Origin: Methanosarcina mazei S-6
GTDB taxonomy: Archaea; Halobacteriota; Methanosarcinia; Methanosarcinales; Methanosarcinaceae
Direction: 5' to 3'
Assembly: GCF_000970205.1 (NCBI RefSeq)
Contig: NZ_CP009512.1
Span: 2,170,001-2,234,000 of the forward strand
DNA length: 64,000 bases
In this document: positions 15,302-63,149 of the stretch, piece after piece
How the letters are laid out: the number at the start of each line of letters is the position of its first letter
Position numbering within the stretch: position 1 is the stretch's first letter
Notes under the pieces: model-generated
Database searches by the model: none
Told to the model about the DNA's origin: nothing
Seen by the model: only the letters and a program-made list of their open reading frames with translations
Translations under genes and position numbers: made by a program

Positions 15302-16705
15302 TTATCTTGTCTGTTTCCTGAATAGATTGCAGGAATTTATCTTTACATCGAGTAGTTTCTCGATATTCATTTTAGCGGCAATTCCCTTTGCAGCACCAGG
15401 CACTGAAGTGATCACGCCTATGTCGAGTTCCTCACGGAGTTCGCGCATAACATATTCATCCGCCAGGTCCATGGTTTCTACATTTAGCTTCTTTGCAACG
15501 TATTCCTTTGCCTCTTTAATCTTCATGTTCTTTGAGAACTGCATCCTTGCAACAAGGTCTCCTGCTGCTCTCATTCCTGTCATACCTGAAGCCATTATGT
15601 GGGAAATCGGCATACCCAGAGGGTCGCCGACCCCGATCTATATGCCGTCTACGCCTGCAATCTCGACCATTGCCTTGCTTGCCCTTGTAACGGCATCAAT
15701 CGGAGGAGTTTCAAGCATGGGAATTCCGCCGACGCCCATGCCCATGTCAACATGGCAGGGAATTGAAGAAGCCTGAACTGCTGCTTTCATAAAGTTGACA
15801 GCGCGTGCAAGGTTCCATGGAGAGGTCTTGCTTGTGTTGGTGTTGCACACAGGCCCGAAAACGTTTGCACCTGCTTTTGCAATAAGAGGAGCCTGCTGGT
15901 GTGGCCAGAGCCCTGCAAGTGTAACCCCGTCATACTGGAGGTTACCGTGCATACCAAGTACACATTCGCCAGCCATGCCTGCTTCAATGTACATGTCAGG
16001 GAACTCTTTCCTCAGAGCCTCGATTGCATGGAGGGTACCGTACATGTCAGCATCGCCTGCGGCAGCGGTGGTGTCAAAGTTAACGCCGTCTGCTCCCGAG
16101 GCAAAGAGTTTCTGCATAACCCACACTGTGTCCCTTGTAAGGTGCGCGGCTGCATGTTCCATGGAGTCCCAGGCTTCCTGGATCTTGAAAGCCTTCATGA
16201 GGTCTCCGGGGTTTTCGAAAGGTCCGTCAGGAGTGTAGTACAGCCCCATGTTCGGCATTGCACCGTAAAAGAGCGGAATGATCATGTTCTGCTGGCAGAC
16301 TTCCATTGCCTGGCACTCGTTTGCTACGACAGGCTTTACAGGCTTGTAGCTGTAGTCGATGTGACCCAGTTCCATTGTGTCAGCGCCAAATGCCCTTTCG
16401 TGCATCATGCACCCGACAAGACGGCTGGAAGGTATACCAACACCACTGTTGCCCTGGTCACCGTCAAGCCTTAGTGTGCCTATGTCGTGTGTGACAGGGA
16501 CTTCCATGCCCTGCTCGACACTGACGGTTTTGCCGGGCATCATCAAAATTTCTGCAAGCTTGTCGATTTCATCGCCACTTAGGTCGGGAATTTCACCGAG
16601 GTCAGAGGCATTCGCCATTCCTGCCTCAAGCTCCTCCATGATCTTGTCCTTAGTAAGGAAGATACGTTTCCCGTCTCCCATCCTTAAAGCATATTCGGTT
16701 GCCAT
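15302..16705 (-). CDS. mtbB: Dimethylamine:corrinoid methyltransferase with pyrrolysine
   Basis: 467 residues read through the in-frame UAG at 15640-15638 (codon 356), between '[10 protein letters not shown]' and '[11 protein letters not shown]'. This is the known pyrrolysine site of MtbB, and the total length equals the family length. The enzyme is a TIM barrel that moves a methyl group from dimethylamine to the cobalt of MtbC; pyrrolysine binds and orients the amine. ATG 16705 has GGAG eight bases upstream. The sequence on both sides of UAG is typical of the family, so this is one gene and not two ORFs. It lies 117 bases after mtbC and ahead of the permease: mtbC-mtbB-mtbP. Confidence 0.97.
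15638..15640 (-). other. UAG codon read as pyrrolysine
   Basis: In-frame amber codon of mtbB (codon 356). Translation continues in the same frame for 111 more residues that belong to the family. The pyl genes themselves are not in this window. Confidence 0.95.
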
Positions 16706-57969: not shown

Positions 57970-58410
57970 ATGATCAGAAAAACAGATGAAGTCGTGTGCC
58001 CAAATCCAAAATGTTCATATTATCTTAAAGCTGAGGGAAAAGCCATAATCAAACGTGGAAAATATAAAACAGGGCATCAGAGATATTACTGCAAACATTG
58101 TGAGAAATTCTTTATGGATACTATAGGCACGGCTATATATCGCAAACATCTGTCTAAAGAAGAAATAAGAATGATATACCGGCTTTTCCTAGAAAAAAAT
58201 GGAATCAGAAGCATTGAAAGGATAACAGGACACCACAGAGATACAATAAGCAACCTTCTAAAAGATACTGTCAAAAATGAAAAGACGGAAGACTATCTAA
58301 TCAACCAGATAGGTCTGACAGCTGAAGAATGTGAGAAATTATGGATATTTCTGGAAAAAAAGAGAAATTCTTCCCGAAACTCCTTAAAACAGAAGGATAA
58401 TAACTCATAA
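57970..58410 (+). CDS. Orphan IS1-InsA-like zinc/HTH protein
   Basis: 146 residues with a strong AGGGAGG before ATG 57970. N-terminal zinc finger of the IS1/IS1595 type (CPNPKC...YYCKHCEKFF) and a helix-turn-helix 'GIRSIERITGHHRDTISNLLKDTV', as in the N-terminal half of IS1 transposases, but then a unique tail and a stop; no DDE domain follows in any frame for 250 bases and no terminal repeats are seen. Either a remnant of an element or a transposase DNA-binding domain recruited as a regulator. It differs from the IS1 protein at 62460. Confidence 0.7.
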   Translation: MIRKTDEVVCPNPKCSYYLKAEGKAIIKRGKYKTGHQRYYCKHCEKFFMDTIGTAIYRKHLSKEEIRMIYRLFLEKNGIRSIERITGHHRDTISNLLKDTVKNEKTEDYLINQIGLTAEECEKLWIFLEKKRNSSRNSLKQKDNNS

Positions 58411-58439: not shown

Positions 58440-58670
58440 GTATCTATTAATGAGATATACAGATAATCTATAAAGATAATCTATAAAGATAGTCTATAAA
58501 GATAGTCTATAAAGATAATCTATAAAGATAATTTAGAAAAATAACTTAGGGAATAATTTAGAAAAATAACTTAGGGAATAATTTAGAAAAATAACTTAGG
58601 GAATAATTTAGAAAAATAACTTAGGGAGCAATTTAGAAAAATAATTTAGGGAGTAATTTAAGGAATAATT
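58440..58670. repeat. Two tandem arrays left of IS66
   Basis: A 13-bp unit (gataatctataaa) about five times at 58461-58527, then a 25-bp unit (aataacttagggaataattt + agaaa) about four to five times to 58650. The IS66 element starts right after it at 58671. Confidence 0.75.
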
Positions 58671-58678
58671 GTAACTGC

Positions 58679-60112
58679 TCAGAGTATAGTTAACGGCGCT
58701 CCTATGAGCGCCGCACGAATACCCTCTAAAACAGGTAAACCGTTCTTTTTTCCTGTAGAAATGTACGCCCTAATTCTGCAGAAAGCTTGCGCTCCCATTG
58801 CTTTTCTGAAAGTTCCCGATATTTTCTGCTGTAGTTTCATCATCCTGATATCTCTTTCTGCCTGATTATTATCAAATGGAACTTTCAAATCTGTCAGGAA
58901 TCTCAGAATCTTTTCTTTGTGTTCTATAAACCTATCCAGCAGATTCCTTGATTTTGTTTTTGGATTTTTACCGCGTTTTCCCTGTTTTTCAGGATTTAGA
59001 GAATGCGGATTTTCTTCAAGCGCTCTAATGATAATTGCATCAAACCTTTCTTCCAATGCTTTAATTTGCTCAAAATCAGGTTCTCTTAATTGCTCTTTAC
59101 ACTCATCAGTGTATTTCTTCATCTCAGTGAGCAGTTCATTCATCTCTTTAGCCCATGTCTGTTTATAGTTCTCTTCAATTCCTGTAAGTTCTCTCTGTAA
59201 ATGAGCGTTACACAGAGCATGATCACAATCATAAACGTTGTAAGGTTTCCATCCATCATGAACTGCTACTCCCTTAAACTTCGGAAGAATTCCCATAGCA
59301 TCTATTGCTTCTGCTCCTCTTTTTGTATGAGCAAAATAACATGTGTATTTTTCATTAGAAGCTACATGAAGCCAGTGTCTTTTTCCTTCAATCTTCATAC
59401 CAGTTTCATCAAAATTGATTACAGGCGAGGCTAATAACTTCTCTCTAATAACGTTTTCAAATTCCTCTAAATTCTGGAAACATTCTCTTTCTGCTCTAAT
59501 TATCGTAGCAGGACAGATTTTTATTCCCATAATGTCTTCAAATAACTCAGAAATTCTATCATAAGGAACAAACTGGTAATTTTTACAGTAAATAGCTGAA
59601 GCTAAAATATTAGGGCCATACTGAACCGGATATTTCACTGATTCGGGAAAAACGGCTTTATTCAACTTTCCACAACAAGGACAGGTTTTAATCTGACTTT
59701 TATGTTCTGTAACAATTAGATTTACGGGAGGAATGTCAAAGACCTGTCTTCTCTCATAAGCTTCAACTTCAACATTCTCAAGGGTAGATCCGCATTCTTT
59801 GCAGCAGGTCAAAGAATGTTCTATTACCTACTCAGGATGATCAACCATATCAAGAGTCGTGCCTGGATGACCTTCCTGACCTCCAGGTTTCTTCCCGCTT
59901 GGTTTACGCAGACTCTTGGGATTAGGTTTCTCTTTGACAAAATAATCAGTAGAAGGAGGTCGACTGCTGTTACGACTGTTTTGATTTAAACGAGATTCTA
60001 AGGCTACAAGTCTTTCAGTGAGTTCTTTAACTTGAGATTCTAAACTCTCAATGTAAGCTACAATAATTTCAGGATTTGAAGCACAGTAAGAAAGAATCTC
60101 ATCACGTTTCAT
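58679..60112 (-). CDS. IS66 transposase with in-frame UAG
   Basis: 477 residues read through the UAG at 59830-59828 (codon 95). N-terminal part: helical leucine-rich segment and the linker 'PGGQEGHPGTTLDMVDHPE'; after UAG 'VIEHSLTCCKECGSTLENV' leads into the zinc motif (CCKEC...CPCC), then the IS66 core with Asp in 'NFDETGMKIEGKRHWLH', Asp in 'AVHDGWKPY' with 'CNAHLQREL', and Glu in 'DNNQAERDIRMMK'. Nothing else is missing: frame, ends and target duplication are intact. So either UAG is a single recent nonsense mutation or the protein is made by decoding UAG, as in mtbB. Confidence 0.88.
59828..59830 (-). other. In-frame UAG of the IS66 transposase
   Basis: Codon 95, between 'MVDHPE' and 'VIEHSL'. 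The two halves are in the same frame with no other defect. Candidate pyrrolysine or read-through site. Confidence 0.7.
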
Positions 60113-60209
60113 AAAGCTAAAAAGGAATCATTTTATATCCAATTTTTCCTCGGAACGAGGAAAAATGTGTAGCCTCGTTAAGGCTACCTGAATAGTTACG
60201 AATAATTTT

Positions 60210-62409: not shown

Positions 62410-63149
62410 GGCTTTGGTAATTAAACATAGTTATCTATTATGAGAGCCTATAGTTCTGTATGGACTGCCCAAGATGTAATAGTTCCACTCACAAAAAGAA
62501 CGGTATAGTTGATGGACGTCAACGGTACAAATGCCATGATTGTGGATATAACTATTCCGTAGAGCTGAAATCAACTGCTAGCCCCACTTCTGTTAAGAGA
62601 CAAGCTTTGCAACTCTATCTTGAAGGATTAGGATTTCGCTCAATAGGGCGATTTTTAGGTGTAAGTCATGTTTCTGTTCAAAAATGGATAAAGAAATTTG
62701 GTCGGGAGCTAGAGGACCTGAAAAGCGAAAATGAGATATCTATTGTTGAAATGGATGAGATGCACACTTACATCGGTAACAAAAAAAATATTGCTGGATA
62801 TGGATTGCTGTTGATAGAGTTGGGAAAAAATTCATCAACTGCTCTTTTGGCAGCAGAGGAACAGAAACTGGACAACTGATCTGGGAAAAATTAAAGACGA
62901 AAAAGATTGAAGAAGTAATGACTGATCACTGGAAACCATATGCAGAGTTTATTCCAGAAACTATTCATACTCAATCAAAAGCAGAAACGTATACAGTTGA
63001 AGGATATAACAGCATATTCAGGCACTTTCTAGCAAGGTTGAGACGAAAGACAAAGTGTTATACGAAGAGTCTTGAAATGCTAAAGTACTCTGTTCTTCTA
63101 TTGATGAAACACAGAAATAAAGAATTAGCTATATTTGATTAACAATGCC
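62410..63149. mobile_element. IS1-family insertion sequence, complete
   Basis: 740 bp. Ends ggctttggtaattaaacata and (reverse complement) ggcattgttaatcaaatata are imperfect terminal inverted repeats of about 24 bp. The 8-bp target duplication ttttttat lies at 62402-62409 and 63150-63157. It landed in the T-rich tail after the repetitive secreted protein gene. Confidence 0.9.
62460..63142 (+). CDS. IS1 transposase, probable programmed -1 frameshift
   Basis: The first frame (62460-62879) gives the zinc finger (CPRCNS...CHDCGYNYS) and HTH (GFRSIGRFLGVSHVSVQKWI). After a run of eight A (62781-62788) the -1 frame continues as 'YCWIWIAVDRVGKKFINC' to the stop at 63142, for a fused product of about 227 residues, the normal IS1 length. 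The DDE residues are Asp in 'VEMDEMH', Asp in 'VMTDHWKPY' and Glu in 'TVEGYNSIFRH'. The heptamer aaaaaat at 62783-62789 fits an A-AAA-AAT slip site, like that of IS1. A plain frameshift mutation is the alternative, but a single -1 slip at this exact place restores everything. Confidence 0.87.

Follow-up and report, generated by a model that had tools for sequence, protein, structure and literature searches.

The locus raises two questions: whether a transposase gene carrying an in-frame UAG yields a working protein in Methanosarcina mazei, and what would keep that codon in place. It was examined within a window of 64,000 nucleotides (the whole stretch of DNA that was analysed), to which all coordinates below refer. 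The answer that we favour, with moderate confidence, is that of an active IS66 element of the ISBst12 type in which the transposase UAG would be read as pyrrolysine and would act as a gate on transposase dose.

The element and its copies in the M. mazei genome

The features of the element are as follows.

58671..60199, minus strand: whole insertion sequence, IS66 family, single gene, ISBst12 type, 1529 bp
58663..58670: target duplication, left copy (8 bp, gaataatt), identical to its right counterpart
60200..60207: target duplication, right copy (8 bp, gaataatt), identical to its left counterpart
58671..58682: left inverted end, GTAACTGCTCAG; over the first 16 bases, 10 agree with the opposite end
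60188..60199: right inverted end, minus-strand sequence GTAACTATTCAG
58679..60112, minus strand: transposase gene, 477 codons with the UAG read as a residue, its own terminator being TGA
59828..59830, minus strand: in-frame TAG at transposase codon 95, the sole stop inside the gene
59855..60058, minus strand: N-terminal domain DUF6444, residues 19-86 (Pfam)
59669..59809, minus strand: zinc-finger domain zf-IS66, residues 102-148 (Pfam)
58784..59626, minus strand: catalytic domain DDE_Tnp_IS66, residues 163-443 (Pfam, 227.6 bits, cut-off 23.1)
59731..59830, minus strand: Rfam RF02512 PYLIS_5, "Pyrrolysine insertion sequence transposase 1" (129.2 bits, gathering score 60)

The initial annotation had placed a complete element at 58671-60201. 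Its inverted ends and exact target duplication stand, but the element ends at 60199, and position 60201 runs 2 bp into the duplication. The frame and the domains, read directly, agree with its description of a transposase that is intact save for one in-frame UAG at codon 95. The ends have the form GTAACT...TCAG, with GTAACT at both, and so begin with the GTAA of IS66 ends. The single gene fills the 1529 bp, and the accessory genes tnpA and tnpB are absent; single-gene IS66 elements of this kind are what we take to be the ISBst12 subgroup.

In an alignment of 38 sequences, D235, D286 and E419 of the transposase are invariant and presumably form its DDE triad; Cys104 and Cys107 are likewise invariant. 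In the AlphaFold2 model (mean pLDDT 83), residues 14-49 form one long helix, residues 45-80 are at low confidence, as in disorder, and the chain is well defined from about residue 90. The three positions at which relatives carry the UAG (codons 91, 95 and 112, see below) would thus all fall, by this model, at the start of the zinc-finger and catalytic part, past the helix and the disordered linker; if the positions are taken as independent, such closeness to that start has a random probability of 0.006. A sequence search of solved structures with the transposase gave no match, and the best fold match to the model among solved structures was the ISCth4 transposase.

The search of the M. mazei genome covered one contig of 4,142,816 bases. 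It returned 14 copies at 100% identity, five at 87% and six at 86%, together with two fragments. All 25 full copies are flanked by an exact 8-bp target duplication, as in the IS66 family, and therefore each of them was transposed as one such unit. The 26 of 26 places that reach codon 95 have TAG there, across all three identity groups, and identical copies with a sense codon there, which the initial annotation had named as the case that would speak against its reading, number zero among these places. A pseudogene or a lone nonsense mutation was rejected, given that the copies in this genome all read TAG at codon 95. The description of the element as freshly inserted is borne out by 13 copies that are letter-identical over 1529 bp and a 14th that differs by one lost base; the proposal that the gene was functional with its UAG when it moved agrees with the finding that each of the 25 full copies combines the UAG with an exact duplication. 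As a control, we scanned the genome for other transposases: three of 24 DDE_Tnp_1 matches have an internal stop (one TGA, two TAG), the eight of these matches with a 558-residue open frame have none, and two matches to the rve domain are free of stops.

Some observations concern the surroundings. The insertion lies at the end of a tandem array rich in A and T (window 58540-58670, seen by eye, unit near aataacttagggaataatttagaaaa), and the duplicated gaataatt belongs to a unit of this array. Two further transposase-like genes with a zinc ribbon were seen by eye nearby, at 57970-58410 and 62460-63142, the latter split in two frames (62460-62879 and 62918-63142).

Position of the UAG among relatives

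An order-wide search covered 185 genomes, 63 of which, in 14 of 27 genera, had a match at E 1e-20 or better. Among the matches listed, 110 places were read, spread over 23 genomes from the genus and a sister genus. Of these listed places, 71 are full length; none of the 71 is free of stops, and every one has a UAG at codon 91, 95 or 112. There is one stop only in 68 of them (65 at codon 95, two at 112, one at 91), and the other three have further stops. We called a copy intact when it consists of one full-length piece with exactly one stop, a rule that by itself dictates a stop in 67 of 67 intact copies; among the listed matches, these have their UAG at codon 95 in 64 cases, at 112 in two and at 91 in one. 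The intact copies with UAG at 112 read GAA at codon 95, and the intact codon-91 copy reads TAT there. The remaining 43 places are broken or partial: 31 have TAG at codon 95, six combine TAG at 112 with a GAA at 95, and six lack a UAG at these sites, their codon 95 being TAT twice, TCG, TGA, TGG and CAT. In the full-length relatives read from other genera, codon 95 is a sense codon, as it is in the bacterial sequences L035, L056 and L057. The expectation in the initial annotation that every copy would have UAG at codon 95 is thus true of its own genome and fails for the relatives with UAG at 91 or 112. What is new here is that the UAG is retained across the group while its exact codon shifts.

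The codon-91 copy (L202 / L163, at G009:C1:2422988-2424430) has an intact frame, an exact target duplication and Tyr at residue 95. Compared with its two nearest relatives, it has changed more at codons 61-120 than over most of the stretches that follow. This clustering suggests, from the sequence comparison, that a diverged patch at about codons 61-105 may have come by gene conversion from an unsampled lineage with UAG at 91. A degenerate pattern around the codon-91 site found this copy as its only exact match in 111 genomes of the family. The codon-112 lineage (clade C) comprises the loci L174, L175, L240-L243 (G002) and L177 (G111). G002 holds seven codon-112 copies: a single intact one, five with a common one-base loss and one that is more broken; the common loss lies in a run of A before the UAG and may be genuine or stem from an assembly error. 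A group II intron match was noted next to the codon-112 element in G111 (RF02012, 60.4 bits, at L177:2019-2111). A further UAG-clade copy, L034, which has successive UAGs at codons 94 and 95 and whose C-terminal part is broken, was found on a contig labelled Bacilli (JAQWCB010000018.1), which is perhaps misbinned Methanosarcina DNA.

A protein tree was built from 53 distinct proteins that span from residue 25 or earlier to residue 440 or later, with residue columns 85-118 left out. Three broken UAG rows (L123, L124, L166) were kept in this tree and excluded from the codon counts and the neutral-rate tree. All 30 UAG rows form one clade (support 96/86), in which protein identity to the window element goes down to 46%. 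The codon-112 pair is sister to all other UAG rows, and the codon-91 row lies inside clade B. The tree requires one change for the presence of the UAG and three when its position is counted; it fits both one gain with later moves and separate gains.

In 12 pairs of UAG sequences, dN/dS was 0.12-0.25 for codons 113-476 and 0.14-0.67 for codons 1-90; judged by these ratios, the protein is under purifying selection on both sides of the UAG. Among 25 distinct sequences of the codon-95 and codon-91 types, 24 have TAG at codon 95, which is one of the 70 of 468 alignment columns in which at least 24 of the 25 are alike. The neutral tree of these sequences has a length of 3.53 changes, calculated from 59 four-fold sites, which are few and located in conserved codons; this corresponds to an expectation of about 10.6 neutral changes for one codon. 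Codon 95 shows a single departure from TAG against this expectation, and the probability of at most one is 0.0003. Two properties looked for in a pyrrolysine protein, conservation of the protein on both sides of the UAG and retention of the UAG beyond chance, are thus present. TAG does not serve as the terminator in any intact distinct sequence of the UAG clade.

These counts bear on what is being conserved. The strongest competitor of the dose gate, though an unlikely one, is that the pyrrolysine side chain is itself needed at residue 95, for DNA or metal contact or for the fold, as in the methylamine methyltransferases. The 64 of 67 intact copies with TAG at codon 95 suit such a need, and residue 95 does not seem free to vary, since Glu occupies it in 19 of 19 sister-clade rows. 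Clade C, however, has Glu at 95 and its UAG at 112, and the codon-91 copy has Tyr at 95 in a gene with an intact frame, an exact duplication and a downstream dN/dS of about 0.2; sense relatives, moreover, are multi-copy without a pyrrolysine codon. Because the UAG is kept while the residue moves, a translational gate fits better than pyrrolysine chemistry at one site. We propose, as a tentative extension, that selection may keep the need to decode a UAG, and not pyrrolysine at a fixed site, by way of dose control and a lock to decoding hosts.

A frozen accident, in which the UAG arose by drift in an ancestor and has been tolerated ever since because the host decodes it, we consider improbable. 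The single clade of UAG rows allows one origin, and according to the available part of a 2010 review, the UAG of M. acetivorans Thg1 is decoded but is not essential for activity (PMC2933860). Eight of the nine single changes in the codon give a sense codon, yet none of the 71 full-length copies among the matches listed is UAG-free, and the roughly 10.6 neutral changes expected at codon 95 are at odds with mere tolerance. The codon is lost in broken or partial copies (6 of 43), and the 67 intact copies hold no second UAG elsewhere.

Probable decoding of the UAG

The genome has pylS and a nearby tRNA-Pyl with anticodon CTA (tRNAs were searched in this genome, pylS in all). It also has a gene at 15302-16705 on the minus strand that contains a single in-frame TAG and is matched by the Rfam mtbB model PYLIS_2 at 116.5 bits, in keeping with the earlier statement that mtbB of the same genome contains a UAG. 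Among the matches listed, every one of the 14 genomes that hold an intact UAG copy has pylS above the cut-off; of the 12 genomes with full-length sense copies, six do (Fisher 0.004, uncorrected for kinship). The proposed confinement of the element to pyrrolysine-using hosts fits this difference, read with the same reservation about kinship. Within the genus, no pylS passed the cut-off in four of 30 genomes (G015, G016, G020 and G026, drafts that are 60-92% complete), and none of them has an intact copy among the matches listed. Single copies in three of them (L134 in G016, L135 in G015, L138 in G020) are decayed and have lost the UAG, with TGG, TGA and TAT, respectively, at codon 95. This loss is a weak sign, because the pylS-bearing genomes G014 and G023 likewise hold broken copies without UAG.

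The downstream part might instead begin independently, at a TTG six codons past the UAG, and two proteins would be made without decoding. In clade A, this in-frame TTG occurs in 16 of 17 sequences (the exception is L025), and in the window element it opens a frame of 377 codons. We regard this explanation as very improbable: a simple check found no Shine-Dalgarno-like bases before the clade A TTG, and the start is absent from clades B and C. No in-frame ATG, GTG or TTG lies within 34 codons past the UAG in any of 11 clade B sequences, or within 57 codons in either of two clade C sequences; the next GTG of some clade B copies (+35) would drop the invariant Cys104 and Cys107. A conserved internal start was rejected on its absence from clades B and C, and the lack of a near start in these clades leaves the downstream part hardly reachable except via the UAG. 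Mobilisation of a nonsense-mutant element in trans by an intact relative is scarcely credible, since, even though the genome also holds IS66 elements with similar ends, an IS66 catalytic-domain scan found no UAG-free IS66 transposase in it (26 matches, being the same 25 elements with one split in two), which refutes this possibility for the present genome, although an intact donor may have been lost since, and the UAG is in every copy of all three of its groups.

The retention of the UAG, the presence of pylS in the hosts, the purifying selection and the lack of a near start in two of three clades make it very likely, from sequence comparison, that the transposase requires decoding of the UAG. 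The dependence put forward in the initial annotation agrees with the UAG in 25 of 25 full copies and with the lack of a UAG-free IS66 transposase in the scanned genome.

An amber-containing transposase family is already known, both from RF02512 and from the 2010 review, as far as its available text goes (PMC2933860). There, Rother and Krzycki describe a transposase family with a conserved amber codon in M. acetivorans and M. mazei, absent in M. burtonii, and count these transposases as an open story (PMC2933860). Such transposases are also treated in the accessible portions of PMC3639795 and PMC1914089, and the frame lengths on either side of the UAG in the published cluster "transposase1" (16 genes, two organisms) fit the window element (PMC2933860; PMC3639795; PMC1914089). 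These sources, in the portions available, make no mention of other UAG positions, a third lineage or a gate. A literature search, limited to partly accessible texts, did not find a change of UAG position, the codon-112 lineage, the codon-91 copy or a UAG gate in transposases, on which older accounts may say more.

The RF02512 match of the window element begins on the UAG. The tested copies of clade B hit RF02513 (PYLIS_6, "Pyrrolysine insertion sequence transposase 2"), whereas the two tested ones of clade C, with UAG at 112, hit neither model. Rfam treats PYLIS as an RNA structure; in our alignment of 20 sequences, six of which start 3 to 12 bases after the others, the fold came to -1.96 kcal/mol and covariation gave it hardly any backing, with a single covarying sequence at each of two pairs. 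The conserved residues 99-128 use two or three codons each in the codon-95 and codon-91 sequences, so there is no sign of a locked RNA after the UAG. For MtmB, the review, in its available part, describes PYLIS as non-essential (PMC2933860).

The UAG as a putative gate on transposase dose

The gate that we favour can be laid out in three steps. In the first, for which the sequences argue strongly, the working transposase would be the full-length protein, made only through decoding of the UAG. In the second, translation by some ribosomes would end at the UAG, yielding a short protein that comprises the N-terminal helix plus the flexible linker, while the remaining ones would read through to the whole transposase, so that the UAG would set its dose; the short product may be an inhibitor of transposition, and the codon would limit the element to hosts that decode UAG. 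In the third, which is speculative, output might follow the supply of methylamine.

In a reporter with an introduced amber codon, read-through of UAG was 20-30% and the product was mostly terminated, according to the part of the review available (PMC2933860), and on this ground the short N-terminal product could be the major one. It is possible that transposase output depends on growth on methylamine. Decoding of UAG is probably not confined to such growth, because M. mazei mtmB2, from the amber-containing class of genes, is most expressed on methanol, as stated in the available text of the same review (PMC2933860). In the main text of an M. mazei Ribo-seq paper, "transpos" and "pyrrolysine" are both absent.

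Against the gate, the cases of a shifted UAG are few: codon 91 is represented by one copy, which could be moved by other copies in its genome, and TAG at codon 95 itself is retained by 64 of the 67 intact copies, as would equally be expected if pyrrolysine were required at that residue. In pylS-bearing genera, relatives with a sense codon occur in multiple copies and have no UAG at all, and the IS66 family therefore needs no gate. If the gate is real, an expanded genetic code serves a lineage of mobile elements as an expression switch, and the activity and host range of the element are tied to the pyl genes. Accepted pyrrolysine proteins are few beyond the methylamine methyltransferases, and a shifting UAG offers a testable alternative to a catalytic role of pyrrolysine.

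In IS1 and IS3, a programmed frameshift between OrfA and OrfAB gives a short N-terminal product and a rarer full-length transposase. By analogy, the element described here would, if the gate holds, likewise make a short N-terminal product and a rarer full transposase, with a stop codon read by a dedicated tRNA in place of the frameshift. ISBst12-type IS66 elements are known from Geobacillus and others, and plasmid relatives with about 39% protein identity over nearly the whole length include ISGst1 and ISGka4. The 60 plasmid records of relatives are all below 60% identity to the window element (best 46.3%), and the nine relatives on viral contigs are all distant.
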